DNA from: a virus
Reading direction: 5' to 3' (one strand)
IMG/VR virus record: IMGVR_UViG_3300047666_001239
Location: 1 to 34,467 of that record
DNA: 34,467 nucleotides
How positions within the stretch are numbered: position 1 is the first letter of the stretch; every line of letters starts with the position of its first letter. The position numbers were made by a program, and so were the translations under genes. This document shows, in pieces, positions 7,345 to 34,467 of this stretch. The notes beneath the pieces were generated by a model, which saw nothing but the letters and a program-made list of their open reading frames with translations, was not told where the DNA came from and ran no database searches.

Positions 7345-7968
7345 TTATTCGCCTGTTTCGTCAGTTGCTGAATCAAGTGAGCTCACAACCACATTGTCTT
7401 GATACCAAGCCCAAGCAGCATCTCGCTCTGCAGCTGTAGGAGTGATATCTTCACTGTTAATAGTCATTTTTAGATGTTCACAATTAGGCTTTTTCGTTAA
7501 TGGCGCTTCATTATTTAAGTCGTCAATAACAGCGATAAAATGGTGAAGTTCTATAGGGGCTGAACTGCAATCAAATCCAAACGTTCTTTCTCCAACACCG
7601 GCCAAATCAGCAAGCGCGTCTTCATGAGTAATGACAGGGGGGTTAGCAATTTCTATTTCAAGTAGCGTTATGGTTTCTTCTTGACCCAAGCTTAATTTTG
7701 TTAGTGCCGTCACCTGATTTTTTAAGGTGGCATTTTCAGCAAGCAACTTCGCAAACATTTCTTTGGTATAAGCCATTGTTGAGTCGCTTTGAGTGTCACT
7801 TGCTGATTCAGCAACAACGGTTAGATTTTCATCATCAACTAACAACTGTATTTGTTCTTCGGTAGCTTGTAGTTCGTTTTCACCTTTTGTTAAAGCAAAA
7901 CCTGCTCGTCGGTAACCTGTGGGCATAGCGCATAATACTGCTACGGCAAGTAACGTTAATTTAGTCAT
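7345..7968 (-). CDS. Mu gp35-like (HI1506-related) structural protein
   Basis: A 207-aa protein whose N-terminal 50 residues include GYRRAGFALTKGENELQATEE, the segment shared by Mu gp35 and HI1506-type proteins. A helical, Glu-rich stretch follows (residues 70-110), then a region ending in a Trp-rich motif (DAAWAWYQDNVVVSSLD). The first 15 residues are hydrophobic and look somewhat like a signal peptide, but this is a virion-module gene and export is unlikely. Some homologues carry a Rho-like N-terminal fold at the end of the protein. It lies just after a strong terminator that follows the capsid gene, so it should be transcribed at a lower level. Confidence 0.65.
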   Translation of the reverse strand: MTKLTLLAVAVLCAMPTGYRRAGFALTKGENELQATEEQIQLLVDDENLTVVAESASDTQSDSTMAYTKEMFAKLLAENATLKNQVTALTKLSLGQEETITLLEIEIANPPVITHEDALADLAGVGERTFGFDCSSAPIELHHFIAVIDDLNNEAPLTKKPNCEHLKMTINSEDITPTAAERDAAWAWYQDNVVVSSLDSATDETGE

Positions 7969-8002
7969 TTTTATAGTCTCAGTTCATTTTCAAAAGAAGG
8001 TT

Positions 8003-8030
8003 AAAAAAAGCCACCACAATATCTGGTGGC
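8003..8030 (-). terminator. Intrinsic terminator after the major capsid gene
   Basis: On the minus strand a perfect 7-bp stem GCCACCA / TGGTGGC with a 7-base loop is followed by seven T residues. It sits 24 bases behind the capsid stop and 35 bases before the gp35-like start. It is probably leaky, so that capsid mRNA is in excess while the tail genes are still read. Confidence 0.8.
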
Positions 8031-8054
8031 TAAACACTCAGGGAAAGTTAACTA

Positions 8055-8981
8055 TTAACCTGCGCCAGTTGAGCCAACAGACAGTTGCCATAAGGTGTAA
8101 CCTGCAGATGCTCGCGCTTCTGCACCAAACTTGAGTTTTTTCTTACTAAACACGTCATCGCTGTTTAAGTCGGTTTGACTAACAAACACAGGCGCTTTAC
8201 GGTTTTGGTACAAGAAAGGTTTGATAGGACGCGTAGTACAATGCAGCATCCATTGGGTGTTACTGGTTAGCCCAGGGTTAACAATAATATTAGTGATTTG
8301 TCCGAAGTAAGGATTAATCGAATTATCAGCAAATTTGTCACTCGTTGCCAACATACGAGCAGCAGTGGCAAGCGTTGTTGGTACTTCTAACGTGTCAGGC
8401 ACAATTTTTAATTTACGGCCATGTTCATCTTTATGGCCAGACATCATAATAATTGCCGCACCTAATGACGCATCAGCAGCCGCTAAACTTGCCCAACTTA
8501 AAGTAGCGGTTAACTTGTTAGATATGCTTTCATCTTCTTGGGTTTCAGGGTTGTAAACGGGGTGATCCGTATCGTAGAAAAACTGACCGTCGTAACACAA
8601 AGTGATAAACGCTTTATCTTTGGCCATGTTAATCAAGTCATCAGGCAACTCTTTAGCCGCTTGACCACCATCACGGGCTTGAATGGAGTATTGACCCATT
8701 TTGTCGTCGTCAATGTCATTGCGATCAACTTCAATGGTTACTTCAAAGTCTTCATTGGTTAATGAGTACTTTGATGCAGATAAACGATTAAGTACTTTTT
8801 CACCAATCCACTTGCGCATACGAGGAAAGTTGCCAAACCAAGTATAATCTTCAGTTTTAGTTGACGACGGCACTACCGTAGTGGTTTTTTCATATTGTGA
8901 CTCGTGGGTTTCAAACGTTTTATTAAAAATCGTTTTAATTGCCACGAACGCTGCTTGAATAGCGGCTTTATTTACAATCAT
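8055..8981 (-). CDS. T: Major capsid protein (Mu gpT-like)
   Basis: A 308-aa protein, close in size to Mu gpT. It shows the family's N-terminal helix (AAIQAAFVAIKTIFNKTF), the FPRMRKWIGEK segment near residues 52-62 and the DRNDIDDD...GQYSIQA motif near 88-104, followed by FYDTDHPV. gpT forms the HK97-fold icosahedral head. An in-frame ATG at 9002 exists, but the start at 8981 is chosen because AAGGAGA lies eight bases upstream and because the alternative prefix is basic and unlike the family. The start overlaps the stop of the upstream gene (ATGA). A strong terminator follows the gene. Confidence 0.92.
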   Translation of the reverse strand: MIVNKAAIQAAFVAIKTIFNKTFETHESQYEKTTTVVPSSTKTEDYTWFGNFPRMRKWIGEKVLNRLSASKYSLTNEDFEVTIEVDRNDIDDDKMGQYSIQARDGGQAAKELPDDLINMAKDKAFITLCYDGQFFYDTDHPVYNPETQEDESISNKLTATLSWASLAAADASLGAAIIMMSGHKDEHGRKLKIVPDTLEVPTTLATAARMLATSDKFADNSINPYFGQITNIIVNPGLTSNTQWMLHCTTRPIKPFLYQNRKAPVFVSQTDLNSDDVFSKKKLKFGAEARASAGYTLWQLSVGSTGAG

Positions 8982-24354: not shown

Positions 24355-26136
24355 ATGATTTCTGACATAGCAATAAGTACGTTAACGCTTTGCGGCGAAC
24401 AGTTACAAAAAGCTGGTAATGGCGAAAAAGGCTCTATTTTATCACGTGTTATGACTGAATTAGGCTGGAGTAAAGACAAGGTTTACCGAAACCTTAAAAA
24501 GCTTGGTTTTGATAGTGGTCGTAAAACCCGTAAAGATGCAGGTACCACAAGCCAAGACATAGGCGCGTTATTAACCCTTGCAGCCGTCAGTAAAACCAGT
24601 GCTAGAGCTAACGGTAAAACGCTAGTAGAAACCACCGACGCAATCAGCATTTTAAGCCAAAATGGTCATGAGTATTTATCACCTAGTTCAGTTAATCGCT
24701 TATTGCGTGAACGCAAGTTAACCGCCAAGCAAACTAAGCAAGACACCACACACGGCCATATTAGAACATTGCATAGTAACCACATGCATGAAGCTGATGC
24801 TTCACTTTGTGTGCTTTATTACCCGCCTAATAGCAAAGGTGTTTGTGTGCAAAAACATACTACCTTTGCTGAGCAATATAAAAACAAACCAGAGCAGCTT
24901 GAAAAAATCAAAAAACTGCGGGTTTGGCGCTATGTGATGGTTGACCATTACAGCGGTTTAATTTCAGTTAAATATTTTGAAAGTGCGGGTGAAAACCAAA
25001 AGATTTTATATACCTTTTTACTGTCTGCTTGGGGCAAAGCAAGTGGCTCTCCTTTTCATGGTTTACCGCAATACCTCTACTGGGATAAAGGCAGCGCCAT
25101 GACCAGTAAAGCAATTAAACATGCGTTAGGTTGTTTAAAGGTAAATCACATTGCGCATACCACCCACTTAGCACGTGCTACGGGCGCTGTTGAAAAAGCC
25201 AATGACATTGTTGAAAAACGTTTTGAAGGTCGTTTGTTTCTTGAGTCGGTTAACAGTGTTGATGAACTAAATGCCATAGCTGTTAAGTGGCAAAACGCTT
25301 ACAACGCTAATTTAATCCCAAATTATAACGCTAAGCATAAGCGCCATGGCATGGCGAGAAATGACGCTTGGTTAACCATAATGCAAGCAGGCAATATTAA
25401 GCATTTACGTGCGTTACCTAACCTTGATTACTGTCGTTATATATTTTCGCATGAGCCTGAAACACGCATTGTTAAACCCGATGGTGAAATTACTTTTGTT
25501 CATCCACAAGTTAAAAAATCGCTTACCTACAGCCTTGCTAACTTAGACGGTATTTCGGCAGGCATTACGGTATTAGTTAGCCCACTTGTTGTGAGTGATG
25601 AGTGTCGCGTATTAGTGACTATTGAAAATAAATTTGGTGAAAATGTTCTACATGAAGTTGCACCGCTTGAGTTCCTTGAAATGGGCTTTCGTGCTGACGA
25701 TGCCATATTTGGTGAAGAGTTTAACACCAGAAAAGACAGCCAAATTGATACCAACCAAAAGCAAATGGACAGACTTGCTTATCCTGGCCTTAGCGATGAA
25801 GACATTGCTAAAGCGAAGAAGAAAAAGGTAATGCCATTCAATGGCGAAATAGATGCTTTAAGCCATATAGCCAACTTAAATGCACCTGCCGCCATTACCC
25901 CCAAAGGTAAAGAATTTACTGTGCCAAACGAGTTTGTACCTGAAACACGTAAACCACTTTCACCACTTGATTTGAAAATAGCCGTAACCAATGCACTGGG
26001 CCGTGATTTAGAAGGGTTTGAGTTTGATGTATTGGCAAGCTATGAAGCGGTTTATTCAGAAGATATTGCCGCTATTGTCGCTGAGCTACATAGCGGCTTA
26101 GCCAAGCCAACGGCAAAAATTGTTCAGTTTAAATAA
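24355..26136 (+). CDS. Transposase TnpA (MuA-like DDE, B3/D3112 clade)
   Basis: A 593-aa transposase. After an N-terminal HTH region comes the rve catalytic core: Asp148 in HEADASLCVLYY, Asp244 in QYLYWDKGSAMTS and Glu280 in RATGAVEKANDIVE, a complete DDE triad. The segments WRYVMVDHYSGLI (191-203) and PFHGLPQYLYW (233-243) place it with B3/D3112-type rather than Mu-type enzymes. It cuts and joins phage ends during integration and replicative transposition. The expected end-binding sites are seen at 34303-34343. The C-terminal domain (about 450-593) would contact TnpB. The gene is intact. Confidence 0.95.
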   Translation: MISDIAISTLTLCGEQLQKAGNGEKGSILSRVMTELGWSKDKVYRNLKKLGFDSGRKTRKDAGTTSQDIGALLTLAAVSKTSARANGKTLVETTDAISILSQNGHEYLSPSSVNRLLRERKLTAKQTKQDTTHGHIRTLHSNHMHEADASLCVLYYPPNSKGVCVQKHTTFAEQYKNKPEQLEKIKKLRVWRYVMVDHYSGLISVKYFESAGENQKILYTFLLSAWGKASGSPFHGLPQYLYWDKGSAMTSKAIKHALGCLKVNHIAHTTHLARATGAVEKANDIVEKRFEGRLFLESVNSVDELNAIAVKWQNAYNANLIPNYNAKHKRHGMARNDAWLTIMQAGNIKHLRALPNLDYCRYIFSHEPETRIVKPDGEITFVHPQVKKSLTYSLANLDGISAGITVLVSPLVVSDECRVLVTIENKFGENVLHEVAPLEFLEMGFRADDAIFGEEFNTRKDSQIDTNQKQMDRLAYPGLSDEDIAKAKKKKVMPFNGEIDALSHIANLNAPAAITPKGKEFTVPNEFVPETRKPLSPLDLKIAVTNALGRDLEGFEFDVLASYEAVYSEDIAAIVAELHSGLAKPTAKIVQFK

Positions 26137-26156: not shown

Positions 26157-27602
26157 ATGAGCGCACTATTAAAACTTCACACAACTACTGAGTTTTTATC
26201 TATCGGCGATGTGATGGCTAAGCATGAAATTATGCAAGCAAGTTTGGTTAGACAATTGGCAGCTGACGGCATGGTATGCAGTAAAGGAACAGTGCGTTTA
26301 TTAATGCAAGGCGGTTGGCCTAAAAAGTTCAGCCAATTAGCAGTAAAAAAATCAATTTTGCGGTTGTTAAATGGCCGCGCAACTCAGGAGGAAATGAACA
26401 TTATGTTCGACAAAGCTGCAGAGCAAAACAGCAAGCCGCAAACCTTTAAAGCATCAACCTTGTTGGGTAAATATAATTTTACTCAACGTGATGGCTGCAA
26501 CGTACTTAAAGAGGCGGGCATAAAACTAAGCCTGCCATCGTTCAATATGTTTTTGAACAATGGCTACACCACTAATGCGTATTCACTCAAAGACATTCAG
26601 CAACCGCTTGAAACATGGCTAGCTAAATTTGCCACCAAACAAGAAATAAAAACAATGTGGGACACAACGGGGAAAGCGCATTTAGGAACCGTTAAAAAAA
26701 ATCTATTAACTAATAATTTTGCTGAAAACTTGGAGCCAGAAATGTTAAGCCAAAAAGCAATGAAGCACTTTCGTGTTTCTCAACATCCTTTTGCTGATGA
26801 AATGCGCGGTATGAATGACTTATTCATGAGTCAACACCATCTTCGAGTACGTGAAGCGATGATACAAGCCGCACAAAACGGCAGTATTTTAGCGGTAGCT
26901 GCTGAGTGTGGTGCGGGTAAAAGTACGTTACGCGAGTGCTTTAACGAGTACACCAAAATTGAAATGCCTAACTTATTAATTATTGAGCCAGAAGTAACCG
27001 ACAAAAAGCTACTAACGGCAGCAATGATTTTTGAAGCGATAGCCGACGAACTAGGGATCACTAATTTACCTGTAGGCCATGAAAAACGCTCACGAAAAAT
27101 TAAACGCGAGCTAATTAAAAGCAGTAAATCAGGTAATAGTCATGTGATTGTTATTGAAGAAGCACACGACTTAAGCAAGTCATTATTGAAGCATTTAAAA
27201 CGTGTTCATGAGCTGCGTGAAGGCTTTAGAAGTTTGCTGGGTATTATTTTGGTTGGCCAAGGTGAGTTAAATAGCAACTTGAATAATTACGATGTTCGTG
27301 AGTTTTCACTGCGCTGTAACGTGATTGATTTACCGCCGCTTGGCCTTTCTATTACTGACTATGTGGCTCATAAGTTTAACCGTAAAGGCGTTGATTACAG
27401 CAAGGTAATTAACCAGGGCGGTATTGATGCCATTAAAGAGCGTTTGCAAGGCGTTACGGGCTTTGGCTTGAAACGTGGCCAAGAATCTAAAGACATGAGC
27501 TATCCGCTAAATGTTAACACCATGCTAGTTAAGGCAATGAACCTCGCCGCGAGTTTGGGCGAGCCGTTGATCACTAGAGAAATTATTGAGCGAATTAAAT
27601 AA
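26157..27602 (+). CDS. Transposition ATPase TnpB (MuB-like AAA+)
   Basis: A 481-aa AAA+ protein directly after the transposase gene. Walker A AECGAGKST is at 249-257 and Walker B HVIVIEEAH at 329-337, followed by an LVGQGELN sensor segment. The N-terminal 200 residues hold small HTH-like repeats, longer than in Mu B (312 aa) and like the B proteins of B3-type phages. It binds target DNA as a filament, stimulates TnpA and gives target immunity. An AAGGAAG ribosome site precedes the ATG. All expected motifs are present. Confidence 0.92.
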   Translation: MSALLKLHTTTEFLSIGDVMAKHEIMQASLVRQLAADGMVCSKGTVRLLMQGGWPKKFSQLAVKKSILRLLNGRATQEEMNIMFDKAAEQNSKPQTFKASTLLGKYNFTQRDGCNVLKEAGIKLSLPSFNMFLNNGYTTNAYSLKDIQQPLETWLAKFATKQEIKTMWDTTGKAHLGTVKKNLLTNNFAENLEPEMLSQKAMKHFRVSQHPFADEMRGMNDLFMSQHHLRVREAMIQAAQNGSILAVAAECGAGKSTLRECFNEYTKIEMPNLLIIEPEVTDKKLLTAAMIFEAIADELGITNLPVGHEKRSRKIKRELIKSSKSGNSHVIVIEEAHDLSKSLLKHLKRVHELREGFRSLLGIILVGQGELNSNLNNYDVREFSLRCNVIDLPPLGLSITDYVAHKFNRKGVDYSKVINQGGIDAIKERLQGVTGFGLKRGQESKDMSYPLNVNTMLVKAMNLAASLGEPLITREIIERIK

Positions 27603-28466: not shown

Positions 28467-28739
28467 ATGAATAAATCTCAATTAATCGAACAAATTGCTA
28501 GTGTTGCTGAGCTTTCTAAAGCGCAAGCTGAACGTGCATTAAATGCTTTTCTTGGCAGCGTTACCGAAGAGTTAGCCGATGGAGAACAAGTGGCTTTGGT
28601 GGGTTTTGGTACCTTTTCAGTGAGTGATCGCGCAGCAAGAACGGGTCGAAACCCTCAAACAGGTGCAGCCATTGAAATTGCCGCCGCTAAGGTACCTAAA
28701 TTTAAACCAGGAAAAGCACTAAAAGACGTATGTAACTAA
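28467..28739 (+). CDS. HU-family DNA-bending protein
   Basis: A 90-aa HU protein: [20 protein letters not shown] start, the [21 protein letters not shown] arm region (residues 46-66) with the RNPQTG intercalation motif, and the [12 protein letters not shown] end. HU bends DNA; in Mu it is needed to assemble the transposition complex at the left end. Here the phage brings its own copy, also seen in other Mu-like phages. The AAAGGTAG ribosome site lies ten bases before the ATG. The sequence is complete and should be functional. Confidence 0.95.
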
Positions 28740-28791: not shown

Positions 28792-29244
28792 GTGACTAAC
28801 AAATTAATCCAAAAAATTAAAATAGCAGAAAAACAGTTTCATGATGACGATGACGACATGAAACGTTTAGTTAAGCGTGAAATAACAGGCGAGGATTCAT
28901 TAATTGATATGACGTTAGCTCAGAAACAAGACGTTCTTGATCACTATAAAAGCCTGGGCTTTGTTGTTCAAACCAAAGCCAAGAAAAAGCTAACCGGGCA
29001 AGCCGCCAAATTATTCAGTATTTGGCAGCAAATGGCTGATTCAAAATTCATTCGAGATCGCCGTTATGCCTCATTAGAAAAATGGGCTGTTGAAAACTGT
29101 AAAGGTGATAACCACGGCACACCTATTAATAAGCTTGAATGGTTCACACCAACCATGCTGCACAACGCAGTAGAGCAATTGAAAGGCTGGCAAAAACGTG
29201 AACAAGACAAAGCTGACGCCAATAAAAATGTAGTGAGTGCATAA
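28792..29244 (+). CDS. gemA: GemA-like regulatory protein (DUF1018)
   Basis: A 150-aa protein of the DUF1018 family that includes Mu GemA. Typical parts are IKIAEKQFHDDDDDMKRLVK, the LTGQAAKLFSIWQQMADSK segment at about 65-83 and the C-terminal LEWFTPTMLHNAVEQLKGW. GemA of Mu alters host gene expression and DNA supercoiling; the molecular action is unclear. The start codon is GTG at 28792 with AGGAGAG at good distance. It is followed after three bases by the Mor/C gene, as gemA-mor in Mu. Confidence 0.85.
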   Translation: MTNKLIQKIKIAEKQFHDDDDDMKRLVKREITGEDSLIDMTLAQKQDVLDHYKSLGFVVQTKAKKKLTGQAAKLFSIWQQMADSKFIRDRRYASLEKWAVENCKGDNHGTPINKLEWFTPTMLHNAVEQLKGWQKREQDKADANKNVVSA

Positions 29245-29247
29245 ATC

Positions 29248-29607
29248 ATGGATAAGCAAGAGCGCAATGGCCAGTTTCTTTTTGACTTACTTCAGTTAAA
29301 TATTGAGTTGTTAAAATCCGCTGGCTTTGAAGAGAAAAAAGCCTTTGATATGGCCTTAGAAACCTGTCAAACATTGACTGGCCGCTACGCTGGCTTGCAA
29401 TTTTATTTCCCTAAAGGAAAAAAATTATTATCCATTATTAACCAGTCAAAAGTATTTCACGAGTGTAACGGCAGAAATGTAGATGATCTCGCCATTAAAT
29501 ATGGCTATTCAGCCGTTCACATTTATCGAATGCTAAGTAATGAATATAAACAGCGCCAAGGCGATATGTTTGACGAAAACCAACCAAGTTTATTAGATAG
29601 AGACTAA
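29248..29607 (+). CDS. Mor/C-family late transcription activator
   Basis: A 119-aa protein with the Mor/C architecture: helical dimerisation region, the strand motif GLQFYFPKGKKLL (residues 49-61), and the HTH RNVDDLAIKYGYSAVHIYRML (in part, LAIKYGYSAVHIYR) at about 76-95. Mor and C of Mu switch on middle and late promoters by binding a dyad upstream of the -35 region. Only one such gene is seen, so it may serve both steps. Its likely targets are the repeated elements at 10564-10621 and 19200-19257. It overlaps no gene and lies three bases behind gemA. Confidence 0.88.
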   Translation: MDKQERNGQFLFDLLQLNIELLKSAGFEEKKAFDMALETCQTLTGRYAGLQFYFPKGKKLLSIINQSKVFHECNGRNVDDLAIKYGYSAVHIYRMLSNEYKQRQGDMFDENQPSLLDRD

Positions 29608-29707: not shown

Positions 29708-29908
29708 ATGCATTTAACTACTTGCCCTGTATGTCATAGCAATATTGATTTATTGTCACTTGTTGAAGACAAAGCAAGCAGCGAGCTATTAAGTGAAGTT
29801 GCCAAGCTTGACTCTTGGCTTGCGCCAAGTGTTCTATTATATGTTGGACTCTTTAAACCAGCTAAAAGTAAGCTGAATAACTCACGCGCTTTAAAGCTAC
29901 TAAAATAA
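29708..29908 (+). CDS. Small Cys-motif phage protein
   Basis: A 66-aa protein starting MHLTTCPVCHSNIDLLSLVE, with one CPVC knuckle, then a helical part with WLAPSVLLYVGLFKPAKSKLN. Small proteins of this pattern (CPxC, then 'LGLFRPAKR') stand at the end of the early operon in B3-like Pseudomonas phages. The single Cys pair could bind zinc as a dimer. AGGAG lies ten bases upstream of the ATG. The gap before it (29608-29707) holds only very short frames, one of which (KHENLTQEQLN) may be a decayed small gene. Confidence 0.6.
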   Translation: MHLTTCPVCHSNIDLLSLVEDKASSELLSEVAKLDSWLAPSVLLYVGLFKPAKSKLNNSRALKLLK

Positions 29909-29962
29909 ACGTTAGCCCTTACCAGCAATAACCGTCTTCTATTAAAAGCGTGTGAAGCAACA

Positions 29963-30190
29963 GTGATTAACATTAGAGAAGCCCGCAAAACTCAAAAAGC
30001 AAAACCATTTAAGGATCATGCTTATCTTGAAAGGGTAATTGATAGCATGAGCGAATCATTTGCTGCAGTTAACACTAGCAGCAACAAACTAGGCAAAGCA
30101 GTAATTAAAAAGCAGGGCCACGTAACAACACCTGAAGAAGATCAAGCAGCCCATGAAGCAATGCTAGTTCAGTATGGTTATAGCAAATAA
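29963..30190 (+). CDS. Unknown small early-operon protein
   Basis: A 75-aa, basic and helical protein beginning at GTG (29963) with a weak ribosome site (GAAG), starting MINIREARKTQKAKPFKDHA. The C-terminal part, PEEDQAAHEAMLVQYGY, is acidic. It is the last gene of the early operon; the strong terminator begins at its stop codon. No motif is recognised. The ATG-less start and short length lower confidence, but reading direction and place fit. Confidence 0.55.
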   Translation: MINIREARKTQKAKPFKDHAYLERVIDSMSESFAAVNTSSNKLGKAVIKKQGHVTTPEEDQAAHEAMLVQYGYSK

Positions 30191-30216
30191 AAAAAGGCTC
30201 ATTAAGAGCCTTTTTT
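30189..30216 (+). terminator. Strong terminator of the early operon
   Basis: A perfect stem of A-rich sequence plus GGCTC (30189-30200) with GAGCC plus six T residues (30206-30216) and a five-base loop. It overlaps the stop of the last early gene and works on paper in both directions. It separates phage early genes from the cargo region. Confidence 0.9.
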
Positions 30217-30229
30217 ATATTGGTAATAG

Positions 30230-30308
30230 CCGTTATTGCCACAAAGCGGTCCTAATTTTGACATATATTAATCTCAATAAATGGTCCGCTTAGCCACCAA
30301 AACGGTCA
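30230..30308. repeat. Two imperfect 23-bp direct repeats and an inverted repeat
   Basis: CCGTTATTGCCACAAAGCGG (30230-30249) continues TCC and is similar to 30286-30308, which begins CCGCTTAGCCACCAAAACGG. The pattern CCGNTTA-GCCAC-AAA-CGGTC is shared. AAGCGG (30244-30249) and CCGCTT (30286-30291) also form an inverted repeat. A third related copy lies at 32609-32629, behind the Septu-like genes. The rest of 30217-30573 shows no gene; it is AT-rich and probably holds the promoter of the ATPase operon. Confidence 0.45.
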
Positions 30309-30573
30309 TTCACCTAATTTCATAGATATGATTTAAACATTAGCCGTTGTTCGTTTAGCAATATTTTACTCATTCTTACGCTGTTTTAGACCGGTGTTAA
30401 CACGGAGACATTAAACATCGATATTAAATAAATTCCTTTTGTTTTTATGTCTTAGGATGCTTTACTTATCAAGTAAGTTTTCCTCTATCGCTTACTGTCA
30501 GTATAAAACATCTATAAATAAAACAGTTGCTTGCTTAGATATCTTAAAGCAGACTATGTAATCAACATTGTAT

Positions 30574-30597
30574 ATCAATGACATTGAGGTCATTGAT
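30574..30597 (+). promoter_or_regulatory. Perfect 9-bp inverted repeat in the leader of the ATPase-HNH operon
   Basis: ATCAATGAC (30574-30582) and GTCATTGAT (30589-30597) form a perfect inverted repeat with a six-base centre. It ends 19 bases before the ATPase start. It may be a repressor operator or an mRNA hairpin near the ribosome site. Confidence 0.5.
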
Positions 30598-30616
30598 AAA
30601 TTAGAGCAATATATTC

Positions 30617-31846
30617 ATGATCAAATCAATAGATTTTAAATTAGTTGGAAGCTCGAACAGACGAGTTCAAATTGAACTTGAGAGTAAAAACCTCATCATT
30701 ACAGGTGGTAATGGTTGCGGTAAAACCCGCTTTCTTGGACAGCTAAAAGCTCACTTAGAGCAATTATTTTCTCGACAACTCCGAGCCAAAGATATTATAG
30801 AAAAAGACTTAGAGAAGAATAGGCACACTTTAACTCAAATTAAACCTTCGGATCGTAATTTTGTTCACTATCAAAATCAAATAACAAATCTAGAGGGGGA
30901 ATTAGAAAGGCTTACTAATGAAAATATTACATTAGATAACCTTGAAGATATATTTACTAAATTAAATTCAAATCAATTTATCCTTCGAGAATTCAAAGCT
31001 AATAGACTAGCAAATAATATAGCGAGTAATGGCCAGATTGAAAGTATGACCACTGTTAAGAGCCAGGGGCAGTCAAGTAATTTTCAGGCAGATTCCAGCG
31101 ATAAGTTCGAAAAATACCTAGTAAGCTACTACAACTATGGTAGCCATGTTATGGCTAGAGAAAATAATCCTAGCGAAGCTAAAAAAGTGGATGACTGGTT
31201 TGATAAGGTGCAAAGCGATCTCTGTAATTTGTTTGAAGATCCGGATTTGTTACTGAAGTATTCCCCAAATATACAGGCATTTAATATTCTTCAGAATGGA
31301 AAAGATCCATACCGTTTCAATCAATTGTCATCAGGCTATAGCTCAATACTTTGCATCTATGCTGATCTACTAATGAAAGTTGAATTACGTGAAATTTCTG
31401 CTGATGAATTAACTGGAATTGTTTTTATTGATGAAATAGATGCGCATCTCCATGTTTCATTGCAGCGTAAAATATTCTCATTTTTTGATAGAGCATTTCC
31501 TAAAATTCAATTCATTGTGACTACGCATTCGCCATTTGTGATTCAGTCTGTAAATGATTCAATTATCTATGACCTTAGTAAGTTAGAGCAACTTGAAGAT
31601 CTTTCGATGTACTCGTATGAATCAATTTTGAAAGGACTACTTGGAGTTAGTAACACATCAAATATTCTAAATGAACGACTAGATAGAATGGCAAAATTGA
31701 TCCATGAAGTACCGATTAATGCTGTAAAGCTGAAAGAACTGCTTGATGAAATAGCACCACATGAAAACCAATTAGATTCACGTTCACGTGCTTTTGTATT
31801 ACTAGGAAAGAATGCTCTTCTAGATTCTACTGACGGTGAGGAGTAA
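30617..31846 (+). CDS. Septu-like (PtuA-type) ABC/SMC-class ATPase
   Basis: A 409-aa ATPase. Walker A GGNGCGKT is at 30-37, a coiled-coil insertion at about 45-115, the signature LSSGYSSI at 237-244, Walker B VFIDEIDAHLH at 269-279 and the H-loop TTHSPFV at 302-308. This is the AAA_15/AAA_21 plan of PtuA. The signature has Tyr where many relatives have Glu-Lys. An HNH nuclease gene follows within four bases, the Septu arrangement. In Septu systems the ATPase forms a complex with the nuclease that attacks on phage infection. At 409 residues it is somewhat short. The GAGCA before the ATG is a weak ribosome site. Other ATPase-HNH pairs exist, so the subtype is open. Confidence 0.8.
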   Translation: MIKSIDFKLVGSSNRRVQIELESKNLIITGGNGCGKTRFLGQLKAHLEQLFSRQLRAKDIIEKDLEKNRHTLTQIKPSDRNFVHYQNQITNLEGELERLTNENITLDNLEDIFTKLNSNQFILREFKANRLANNIASNGQIESMTTVKSQGQSSNFQADSSDKFEKYLVSYYNYGSHVMARENNPSEAKKVDDWFDKVQSDLCNLFEDPDLLLKYSPNIQAFNILQNGKDPYRFNQLSSGYSSILCIYADLLMKVELREISADELTGIVFIDEIDAHLHVSLQRKIFSFFDRAFPKIQFIVTTHSPFVIQSVNDSIIYDLSKLEQLEDLSMYSYESILKGLLGVSNTSNILNERLDRMAKLIHEVPINAVKLKELLDEIAPHENQLDSRSRAFVLLGKNALLDSTDGEE

Positions 31847-31850
31847 GTGA

Positions 31851-32516
31851 ATGTTTAATGTTACTCGTTCATACCCAGCTCCCGCTTGTTTAGCTAAGAA
31901 AAAGTACAACGAAAATGAAGTATTAAAGGCACTGAAACCTATGTTTCATGAAAAGTGCTATCTGTGCGAACGTGATGAAATTCATGATGTTGAAGTTGAG
32001 CACTTTGTTCCCCATAAAGGTGTCGAAGCCTTAAAATTTGATTGGGATAACCTTTACTATTCTTGTTCTCGCTGCAATAGCATTAAGAGTAGTACGCACA
32101 TCAACTTGTTAGATTGTACTGATAAAACAATTAAAGTTGGTACCTTAATTAGTTGTAAGATGCCATCAGCACCTTCTGATGATGTACAAGTGAAAGCAAC
32201 TACAGCTAAACCTACTGCTGAAATAAAAAATACAGTGAACCTACTAACTTTTTGCTACAACCTCGATAATACCGCTTTAAGAGGAATAAGTAGAGAAAGC
32301 TTAATGGAGCAAATGTGGGACCATTACACTGAATTACTGTTGAATAGGTCAATCTTACGAAAGAAAAAGTCTCCTGCTGATCATAAAAAGGATGCTGAGC
32401 AGACCATACAGGCAATGTTAGATGTGACTCATCCGTTTGCAATTTTTTGGCGTTGGTATTATCTCAGTGACAATTTTCTAACACAAAAATATCCTCACCT
32501 CAGAGTTGGATTTTAA
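31851..32516 (+). CDS. Septu-like (PtuB-type) HNH endonuclease
   Basis: A 221-aa HNH nuclease. Zinc-binding pairs are C36xxC39 and C72xxC75, and the catalytic region is EVEHFVPHK (His51), with WDNLYYSCSRCN (Asn67) behind. This is the ββα-metal fold of PtuB-type nucleases. The ribosome site GAGGAG lies inside the last codons of the ATPase gene, so the two proteins are made together. It probably cuts DNA or RNA when activated by the ATPase complex. The C-terminal 100 residues are helical with a Trp-rich end (AIFWRWYYLSDNF). No membrane segment. Confidence 0.82.
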   Translation: MFNVTRSYPAPACLAKKKYNENEVLKALKPMFHEKCYLCERDEIHDVEVEHFVPHKGVEALKFDWDNLYYSCSRCNSIKSSTHINLLDCTDKTIKVGTLISCKMPSAPSDDVQVKATTAKPTAEIKNTVNLLTFCYNLDNTALRGISRESLMEQMWDHYTELLLNRSILRKKKSPADHKKDAEQTIQAMLDVTHPFAIFWRWYYLSDNFLTQKYPHLRVGF

Positions 32517-32578
32517 GTTTCAAATAGCAACTAAAGGATTTATGGAATAGAGGAACTAATAGAACTCAAGGCTTGAAG

Positions 32579-32629
32579 CGGACATTAGCTAGAACTACCT
32601 GCTAATGTCCGTAATGCGCACAAAGCGCC
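32579..32629. repeat. Inverted repeat plus third copy of the 23-bp motif behind the Septu-like genes
   Basis: CGGACATTAGC (32579-32589) and GCTAATGTCCG (32601-32611) form a perfect 11-bp inverted repeat with an 11-base loop. Starting in its right arm, CCGTAATGCGCACAAAGCGC (32609-32628) resembles the repeats at 30230 and 30286. A GACATTAGC also occurs at 33107. The stem could act as terminator for the ATPase-HNH operon although no T run follows. The gap 32517-32678 has no gene. Confidence 0.45.
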
Positions 32630-32678
32630 AGTAAGAACCTAGCTCAAGATAAATACATAAGATGTACTTATTGACACA

Positions 32679-32846
32679 TTAATCGTTTGGATCAGAAGGA
32701 TAAATACATCGAAGTAAATTATATTCAGTGGATTGGTTCCAAGAAGTAAGTAGCTTATTAAACTCTTCTAGCTCAATTGGTGTAAGGCAATCATTAATGG
32801 CTTTTTCTGACAGCGCATTTAAACGCTCGAACTGTTCCTTGTTCAT
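32679..32846 (-). CDS. Unknown 55-aa protein with own promoter
   Basis: A 55-aa, acidic helical protein starting MNKEQFERLNALSEKAINDC, then LTPIELEEFNKLL. AAGGAAAA lies eight bases before the ATG at 32846, which is preferred to an upstream ATG that lies in the promoter. The 'LSEKAxxDxLTPxELEEFNxLL' pattern looks like the N-terminal segment of FecR/anti-sigma-type proteins, but without the rest. It may be a small soluble regulator or a free-standing partner. A perfect inverted repeat overlaps its promoter. Confidence 0.55.
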   Translation of the reverse strand: MNKEQFERLNALSEKAINDCLTPIELEEFNKLLTSWNQSTEYNLLRCIYPSDPND

Positions 32847-32875
32847 ACTAATTTTCCTTAATAGTCTCTCATAAA

Positions 32876-32912
32876 AATATAGTACGTTTATAAGTTTATA
32901 CAACTTATAAAC
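32876..32912 (-). promoter_or_regulatory. Promoter with 10-bp inverted repeat operator
   Basis: On the minus strand -35 TTGTAT (32903-32898) and -10 TATATT (32881-32876) are 16 bases apart. GTTTATAAGT (32886-32895) and ACTTATAAAC (32903-32912) form a perfect inverted repeat covering the -35 and spacer. A regulator binding here would block the 55-aa gene. Confidence 0.5.
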
Positions 32913-33008
32913 AAGACAATCTAAAAGAACAAAAAAAAACTTTTAAAAAAGGCACTCTGCTGCAACGCTTTATTGTCAAAGCACACAGAGGAACATAGAA
33001 AAAATTTA

Positions 33009-33030
33009 CCCCCGTATTACTAAACGGGGG
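33009..33030. terminator. GC-rich stem-loop
   Basis: CCCCCGT (33009-33015) and ACGGGGG (33024-33030) make a perfect 7-bp stem with an eight-base loop. The bases that follow on either strand are AT-rich but without a long T run. It lies between two minus-strand genes. Confidence 0.45.
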
Positions 33031-33045
33031 TCATATTTCAGACAT

Positions 33046-33066
33046 AAAAAAACTGCTCTTTGGCAG
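33046..33066 (-). terminator. Terminator of the 261-aa gene
   Basis: Read on the minus strand, CTGC / GCAG (33066-33063 and 33056-33053) forms a short stem followed by seven T residues (33052-33046). It lies 76 bases behind the stop of the 261-aa gene. The stem is only four to five pairs. Confidence 0.45.
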
Positions 33067-33141
33067 CTTTTGATATTGGGTTAACCGTCACTAATGCCAC
33101 ATTCGAGACATTAGCGATTTCAGCTAATAGAGCAGATTGGA

Positions 33142-33927
33142 TTAGATTTTTTTTGGCAGAGCATTTGCCATAAGCTCTAATATACGCTCTATTTCATTAG
33201 TCATATGAACCAATGTATCTATAACTGGCTGATAATACCCTACGTCTGTAAATGAGAAATTTAAACCTACAGGTACATTTAGTATTTTATGATATAAATT
33301 ATTTGTAGGTACGACAATAACCCCTAACGTTTTTACATCAAAGAACTTACCATTCCATACTACATCCCTGCGGCATTGTCCGAAACTACAATTGCTAATG
33401 CCCCCAGGGAAGTCTGGTATTTGAGAACAAAGTTGTTCACTTGATATCATAGTAAAGTTGCCTGTAGGTATTGGAAGTTTGTGTTTATCAATAATATTTA
33501 TCTCATGAATAAGGTTAAGAAGCACATTACCACCATCTCCAGCAAATGGTTTCACACTTTGAATGGCTACAAAAAAATCCTCATTAACCCTATGACCTAA
33601 TCGACTTTTAATGGTTGATTCAAGTTTTATTTCTGATTTTGAAAAAGGAAACTGGAGTGCTCCATAAGAAGATTCTGGTATGTATAATGACACAGACTCA
33701 AAATATGCTTGATCTAATGCAGACCTAAGGTTATGAAATACATCGCCACAACGGACTACTACCTTATCAAGTGCGTTTAAATTTTTTTTGGCAAATGTTG
33801 CTCGTTGTCCTGAATTAGTATCGGTTTCTAGGCAATAAGTGTAAGGAGGTGAATCTATAATAAGATCACCAATCTCTAACGTTAACTCCCTTGCTCTTTC
33901 AATCTTTGATTTTGCAACTCTAAACAT
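33142..33927 (-). CDS. Unknown 261-aa cargo protein
   Basis: A 261-aa soluble protein. The segment GDVFHNLRSALDQAYFE at about residues 61-77 and the later HEINIIDKHKLPIP near 140-153 form a recognisable pattern ('GDxxHNLRSALDxA ... xNxIDKH') of a widespread bacterial family of unknown function that is often found in islands and prophages. The two His of HNLRS and DKHK might be functional. The rest is mixed alpha/beta with four or more Cys. It has its own terminator and AGGAG about seven bases upstream of the ATG. As phage cargo next to a defence pair it could be part of defence, but nothing in the sequence proves this. Confidence 0.65.
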   Translation of the reverse strand: MFRVAKSKIERARELTLEIGDLIIDSPPYTYCLETDTNSGQRATFAKKNLNALDKVVVRCGDVFHNLRSALDQAYFESVSLYIPESSYGALQFPFSKSEIKLESTIKSRLGHRVNEDFFVAIQSVKPFAGDGGNVLLNLIHEINIIDKHKLPIPTGNFTMISSEQLCSQIPDFPGGISNCSFGQCRRDVVWNGKFFDVKTLGVIVVPTNNLYHKILNVPVGLNFSFTDVGYYQPVIDTLVHMTNEIERILELMANALPKKI

Positions 33928-34263
33928 CTAGTGAACTCCTTTGAAAAAAAACAGTTTATTGTAAGGCAAAAACCCTTGTTTAAACATTGGCTTTTGCGTT
34001 TTTTCATAAGAATAGATTAAATATAATCTAGATAAGAACTAAAAATTCAACTTATTAAAATATTGATTAGTTTAATTAAAACATGAAAGAGAGGGTTTTT
34101 CGTTATTTCATGTTATTACCACTTAAACATTAGAAAAAGTATGGAAGATAACTTTTAGTTAATGTCTCCTTTGCGCACTAAGTTGCCAGTTTAAACTCAA
34201 ACTAATCCACTTTATATTTCTGTAAACACAATTTTCCATATTTGAAACGTTGTTTCTAAAACT
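33928..34263. other. Noncoding end region of the prophage
   Basis: No credible gene. Visible are AACATGAAA / TTTCATGTT (34080-34088 and 34106-34114), a perfect 9-bp inverted repeat with a 17-base centre, and GAAAC GTT GTTTC (34244-34256), whose CGTTTCA on the minus strand resembles the first half of the MuA-site consensus. Further transposase sites may lie here. Confidence 0.4.
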
Positions 34264-34343
34264 CGTCCCATATAGTCCCGTACCTTCCCGCTTAATCCCG
34301 CACTTTTCGCAATTTTATGTTAATCTTTTCTTACTTCCCTTCA
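34264..34343 (-). other. Proposed Mu-like prophage terminus (attachment end)
   Basis: Reading inward on the minus strand from 34343 the sequence is TGAAGGGAAGTAAGAAAAG, then ATTAACATAAAATTGCGAAA and so on. Two sites match the second half of the MuA-binding consensus (AARYRCGAAAAV) at 11 of 12 positions: AAGTAAGAAAAG (34336-34325) and AATTGCGAAAAG (34314-34303). The terminal TGAAG equals the right end of Mu as I remember it. Behind them GGGA occurs four times at exact 10-bp steps (34299-34266). The plus-strand bases after the CA end are ACTGA, the expected 5-bp target duplication. Confidence 0.6.
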
Positions 34344-34467
34344 ACTGATAACCGTTAGCAATCAAAAAATAATAACCCCAGCCCCGTAAAAACTGATTAA
34401 GTTTATGAATTTGCGTTTTCATTGCAATTCCCCAATTGCGGTTGGTCAGTTTTCTCACTTTCGCTTT
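34315..34467 (-). pseudogene. Group II intron reverse transcriptase/maturase, C-terminal fragment cut by the prophage
   Basis: An open frame enters from the right window edge and ends at 34315. Its 50 residues read KAKVRKLTNRNWGIAMKTQI, then HKLNQFLRGWGYYFLIANGY, then QLKGSKKRLT. The 'R(K/E)LTxRNxGIxM...I.KLNQxLRGWxxYFxxA' pattern is the maturase domain (GIIM, domain X) of group II intron proteins. Family members continue for about 40 more residues with an RRRLR segment; here homology stops near FLIANGYQ, exactly at the proposed prophage end (34343), and the last nine codons are phage DNA. The remaining C-terminal part should lie beyond the far prophage end. Upstream domains are outside the window. 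Confidence 0.7.

Follow-up and report, generated by a model that had tools for sequence, protein, structure and literature searches.

A stand-alone Septu-type ptuA–ptuB pair as predicted defence cargo in a right-end slot of a B3-like transposable phage

Main

An ATPase gene followed by an HNH nuclease gene, lying beyond the early operon of a transposable phage, raises two questions: whether the pair is an anti-phage system, and whether it belongs to the phage at all. We examined such a pair in a viral record (IMG/VR IMGVR_UViG_3300047666_001239, positions 1 to 34,467; this whole stretch of 34467 bp is referred to here as the window). An initial annotation had described it as a Septu-like defence pair carried by a Mu-like phage. 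Our analysis indicates that the pair is very probably an anti-phage module of the stand-alone Septu (PtuAB) type, which a B3-like phage carries as cargo in a non-essential slot at its right end and which would protect the lysogen. The two genes belong to the Septu families, keep their motifs and their paired order, and lie within the phage in a slot that is optional.

The pair belongs to the Septu family

Both open reading frames lie exactly where the initial annotation had drawn them, at 30617–32516. On the plus strand, ptuA (30617..31846, ATG start) encodes an ABC-type ATPase of 409 amino acids and ptuB (31851..32516, ATG start) an HNH nuclease of 221 amino acids; the two genes are 4 bp apart, and a GGAG ribosome-binding motif lies within the 3′ end of ptuA. 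PtuA matched the PADLOC PtuA profile PDLC00268 over residues 1–407 (E 2e-138, 460 bits), and PtuB matched the PADLOC PtuB profile PDLC00331 over residues 1–218 (E 2e-87, 290 bits). The Pfam matches were AAA_21/AAA_15 for PtuA and HNH for PtuB. Profile searches thus place the pair in the PtuA and PtuB families rather than in a non-defence family, which bears out its description as Septu-like.

The residues expected of a working system are in place. PtuA contains a Walker A motif (GGNGCGKT, 30–37), an ABC signature (LSSGY, 237–241), a Walker B motif (FIDEID, 270–275) and an H-loop histidine (His304), and PtuB contains C36/C39, E50-H51, N67 and C72/C75-N76-K79. A five-way alignment of the window protein with four phage copies showed that PtuA keeps GGNGxGKT (30–37), L237-S-S-G240, FIDEIDAHLH (270–279) and TTHSPFV (302–308); comparison of PtuB with four phage copies showed that C36, C39, E50, H51, W65, N67, C72, C75, N76 and K79 are kept. 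In the Septu system EcB88, immunity is lost on mutating PtuA K43 or D316, or PtuB H75 or N91 (PMC13096335). The counterparts of these four essential residues (K36 and D272 of PtuA, H51 and N67 of PtuB) are all present here, and the H51–N67 spacing of 16 equals the H75–N91 spacing of EcB88 PtuB.

Two features that had been taken as unusual proved to be ordinary for this Septu subgroup. The signature LSSGYSSI also occurs in three related loci (L005, L007 and L008), and near variants occur in other relatives: LSSGFSSI in L009, LSSGYQSI in E. coli, and LSSGYAAI and LSSGYSAI in two genomes of the Cognaticolwellia family. The ATPase had also been called short, whereas 409 amino acids is a normal length for the subgroup (410 in the four phage copies).

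Structure prediction, from five usable sequences and for single chains only, gave poor AlphaFold models (mean pLDDT 54 for PtuA and 41 for PtuB). We set the PtuB model aside as too weak and used only the PtuA model further, in Foldseek, as supporting evidence: with this weak model, 49 of the 49 matches at E <0.001 were PtuA, the top one being the E. coli Septu structure 8EEA. The pair resembles studied Septu systems (8EEA/8SUX, EcB88) in combining an ATPase with an HNH nuclease in the same gene order, in having no reverse transcriptase and in keeping the catalytic residues. It differs in that the PtuA of 8EE4 has 465 amino acids versus 409 here. Outside the ATPase core, the PtuA of the window shares little identity with any solved PtuA, so neither the oligomer type nor the nuclease target is confidently transferable to the window pair.

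PtuA and PtuB homologues also serve as the effectors of type I-A retrons (Ec78/Eco7 and Ec83), with the same catalytic residues and the same H–N spacing. The window pair, by contrast, is accompanied by neither a reverse transcriptase nor msr–msd RNA, and its PtuA is about 140 residues shorter. The PADLOC retron I-A models matched much more weakly than the Septu models (104 versus 460 bits for the ATPase, 39 versus 290 bits for the HNH protein), and the NCBIfam retron PtuA model, at 99 bits, fell far short of its cut-off of 500. A search across the whole window revealed no reverse transcriptase; nor did the window yield an Rfam RNA match or a tRNA gene, and hence it holds no possible tRNA-Tyr decoy. 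The two components by which a retron I-A is recognized, the reverse transcriptase and the msr–msd RNA, are thus missing from the window, and the traits that mark Septu are present: ATPase motifs, an HNH gene directly downstream, the essential residues and no reverse transcriptase alongside. Judged by its sequence, the pair is a real, intact-looking member of Septu, a family that is itself known.

Just 5′ of ptuA is a perfect 10-bp inverted repeat with a 6-bp spacer (30573..30598, no strand assigned), a possible operator. The RNA fold of this hairpin is not stabler than that of shuffled sequences (z -0.5), and we therefore do not claim leader regulation of ptuA. A search for a strong promoter 5′ of ptuA found none.

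A B3-like transposable phage carries the pair

The window starts inside the late genes, and the left phage end is not within its 34467 bp. The minus strand carries the late genes (terminase, portal, head and tape measure) and the plus strand the early operon, which encodes a transposase, its AAA+ partner, DUF3164, HU, GemA and Mor. The MuA/B3-type DDE transposase (24355..26136) was recognized by a Pfam rve match below the curated cut-off and by 58 transposable-phage relatives among named phages, all at less than 60% identity and 51 of them Pseudomonas phages. Domain searches identified the MuB-type AAA+ transposition partner (26157..27602) and the early genes GemA (28792-29244) and Mor (29248-29607), all on the same strand. 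The HU-type DNA-binding protein gene within the early operon (28467-28739) is common to several, not all, relatives. The last early gene (29708..30190, plus strand) is interrupted by one in-frame TAA at 29906-29908 and is whole in two relatives (L002 and L031); it is either a pseudogene or the site of a sequencing error.

By its genes and layout, the carrier is a B3-like transposable phage. A B3-like layout is that of Mu with the early operon inverted (PMC5977238). The phage is of Mu type, but the earlier label of a Mu-like phage needs correcting on layout: the early operon here is inverted relative to the late genes, unlike in Mu itself. The closest relative that we found is a Cognaticolwellia mytili prophage (L002, which is the same as L014), whose transposase is 83% identical.

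The pair lies inside the phage, in a slot at its right end

Comparison with the C. mytili prophage defines the place of the pair. The blastn blocks shared with L002 stop at 30221 of the window and resume at 34232–34343 (84%), and these blocks are adjacent in L002. On the left, the slot is bordered by the early-operon terminator, a hairpin flanked on each side by A and T tracts (30190..30216, no strand assigned) whose sequence is conserved in L002, L062 and L031. On the right is the phage end itself (34232..34343, plus strand), which has TCCC-rich subterminal repeats and a terminal ...TTTTCGCAATTTTATGTTAATCTTTTCTTACTTCCCTTCA, corresponds to 16365-16476 of L002 and is recognized by an end-signature profile.

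The L002 prophage begins with TG at G001:4522 and ends with CA at 45092 (40,571 bp), with the 6-bp repeat CAAAGC on both sides, and rejoining its flanks restored an open frame of 203 amino acids. The flanking repeat and the rejoined frame indicate that the L002 ends are real. The TG...CA ends with a short target duplication are seen in this relative; the window holds the right end only. Directly beyond that end is flanking, non-phage DNA: a group II intron maturase gene, of which the window contains the C-terminal part (34344..34467, minus strand; Pfam GIIM, E 5e-7). Homology to L002 and the maturase gene beyond together place the right end at 34343, and hence the pair inside the phage. This agrees with the initial annotation, which had put the pair between the early-operon terminator and the phage end: the end maps beyond 32.5 kb, not left of 30.6 kb.

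The phage copy in the window seems to have inserted into a group II intron-encoded protein gene, its end adjoining the maturase part. The C. mytili prophage transposed into a gene within a long attC-like array, a chromosomal integron (L018 3988-4521, L002 16477 onward), and L058 also seems flanked by attC-like sequence.

The cargo segment of about 4.0 kb (30222..34231, no strand assigned) is missing from L002 and has a G+C content of 34%, versus about 40% in the phage. Besides the pair, it holds two minus-strand open reading frames: a small one of 74 amino acids with no assigned family (32679..32903), and an orphan of 261 amino acids (33142..33927) with its own terminator-like hairpins downstream (33071-33048 and 33031-33008). 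The 261-amino-acid protein found no home in Pfam, NCBIfam, PHROGs, PADLOC, plasmids, viral contigs or 246 genomes of the family to which the host of the C. mytili prophage belongs. It contains RCGDVFHNLRSALD, in which an R-x5-H pattern could hint at a HEPN-like fold. A weak match of this protein to ThsB (E 0.018) was discarded, and the idea that the cargo contains a host-derived intergenic repeat was dropped when a search covering ten genomes or records turned up a single 26-bp match.

Measured between the right end and the low-coordinate end of the tape-measure gene, the window spans 32,554 bp and L002 32,823 bp. The similar span indicates that the cargo has added no length to this stretch of the genome, which, as far as two genomes can suggest, would be consistent with a headful limit.

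The slot is empty or differently filled in relatives

To compare the same interval in other phages, we used a right-end profile built from 13 right ends. A further 32 records or loci contained the end signature at E <=0.01, several of them near copies of each other and twelve of them the suppliers of seeds. Relatives have 132-1381 bp between the last early gene and the end, versus 4155 bp in the window, whose filling is the largest seen among the slots compared. As had been predicted for related prophages, the interval was either empty or otherwise filled. It is essentially empty in L002, L031, L034, L037, L058, L062, L077 and L084, and it encodes a 237-amino-acid lipoprotein-like protein in L067, L068, L070, L073 and L074. 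In L036, it holds a gene (7499-8311) for a 270-amino-acid DUF2971 protein of the candidate defence family PDC-S31 (PADLOC, E 7e-46), followed by the end signature and then by host DNA resembling a 5S rRNA gene; in the sister L037 the slot is empty. Those other fillings that were searched against PADLOC gave no match, which leaves Septu in the window and PDC-S31 in L036 as the matches to defence models. The slot is therefore optional, and its content varies at a fixed place between conserved elements, as in a hotspot.

The slot of L102 (16906-18158) holds two orphan genes, one of which encodes a 258-amino-acid protein with a CxxC motif resembling that of HNH proteins; this protein matched nothing in Pfam or PADLOC. 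Two further candidates, a trypsin-like gene in L003 and a three-gene ATPase set in L058, were rejected as cargo because the right-end signature precedes them, which places both in flanking DNA.

Other explanations for the pair

The same data bear on whether the pair might instead be part of a host chromosomal defence island, beside a prophage ending left of 30.6 kb and caught in a viral contig by chance. The right end of the closest relative does directly follow the early-operon terminator, and the cargo is lower in G+C than the phage, as such an island could be. We nevertheless regard this origin as extremely improbable, because the terminal sequence lies past the pair and not at 30.2 kb, a non-phage gene begins directly after it, and in other relatives, too, genes intervene between the operon and the end signature. 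There is also a very slim chance that the genes are a retron I-A effector, that is, a PtuAB toxin whose reverse transcriptase and msr–msd RNA were lost or separated. Against this stand the far better fit of the stand-alone Septu profiles, a window that holds neither component, and the recurrence of the two-gene form, with no reverse transcriptase, in P2-like phages and E. coli. Furthermore, the PtuAB of retron-Eco7 halts growth when its retron is missing, so an orphan would be selected against. These points outweigh the facts that PtuA and PtuB are common to Septu and retron I-A and that solved structures of retron PtuA match in the ATPase core.

A role in the phage's own lytic cycle, in host takeover or replication rather than in defence of the lysogen, seems quite unlikely. 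The pair is missing from most relatives and is separated from the early operon by a terminator hairpin, even though it lies on the same strand. HNH proteins have many phage roles, but homologues of this pair are also found in unrelated phages and in non-phage islands, where a lytic role would make no sense, and the family is defined by defence. We thus favour a stand-alone Septu module that would protect the lysogen.

Proposed role of the pair

For the window pair, a defence function is predicted by analogy with studied Septu and retron systems. Its position in the slot would let the pair move with every transposition and be packaged with the phage. In a lysogen, PtuA and PtuB would be made from their own promoter and may form an ATP-gated complex in which the HNH nuclease PtuB is kept inactive. 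Infection by another phage would release the nuclease to cut an essential nucleic acid, and this cutting would stop the infecting phage and protect the lysogen. The nuclease target is tRNA-Tyr in the Septu system EcB88 (PMC13096335) and in retron-Eco7, and DNA has been reported as the target for another E. coli Septu (cited in PMC11555353). The initial annotation suggested that the system might sense replication intermediates, in which case its carrier would have to avoid self-activation; this idea is plausible.

The right-end slot and known defence hotspots

Septu is already established in prophage hotspots (PMC9122126). The hotspots described there, in P2-like, P4-like, Vibrionaceae and Bacillus prophages, resemble the present slot in being small variable intervals at a fixed place that hold defence systems including Septu. 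Here, by contrast, the slot belongs to a B3-like transposable phage and lies directly against the transposition end, and only two fillings so far match defence models. D3112-like Mu-like phages have regions of genomic plasticity that likewise hold accessory genes of lower G+C at fixed places, but the accessible part of PMC4378225 describes these as lying mainly in the left arm, with mostly short open reading frames including anti-CRISPR genes, and there names no Septu. A literature search that covered little of the subscription literature found no description of Septu in transposable phages or of a right-end slot. The Septu family is known; the newer part, the right-end cargo slot and a home for Septu in this group of transposable phages, appears to be undescribed.

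Comparison fixes the right end and the cargo slot for a group of B3-like phages of marine gammaproteobacteria, and the slot is a lead that deserves a systematic survey; of 294 related viral contigs, 80 were kept in the present analysis. Bordered by Mor or the last early gene to one side and by a recognizable end signature to the other, the slot offers a simple anchor for mining defence genes, even in short viral contigs. It is possible, but on balance doubtful, that B3-like transposable phages in general have a defence hotspot in the interval from the early-operon terminator to the right end. Replicative transposition would then disseminate Septu, PDC-S31 and systems yet to be described (among them perhaps the 261-amino-acid protein here and the orphan proteins of relatives), and the headful limit would set how much cargo fits.

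Relatives of the pair in other settings

The same pair, in the same gene order, was found in all the related loci that we examined. P2-like phage contigs carry copies at 38-41% PtuA identity; those in L007-L009 lie between the tail-completion and baseplate-spike genes. The Septu subgroup of P2-like phages and E. coli islands thus also travels on transposable phages. Among the Cognaticolwellia-family genomes, 2 of 246 have copies, at 47-50% PtuB identity and amid chromosomal genes. Copies at 54-55% identity occur in 14 of 5426 E. coli genomes. Three E. coli loci were viewed: one adjoins IS3, and two are on a RepL island beside tRNA-Asn/mtfA, one of which also has MobQ and pilus genes and a broken ptuA.
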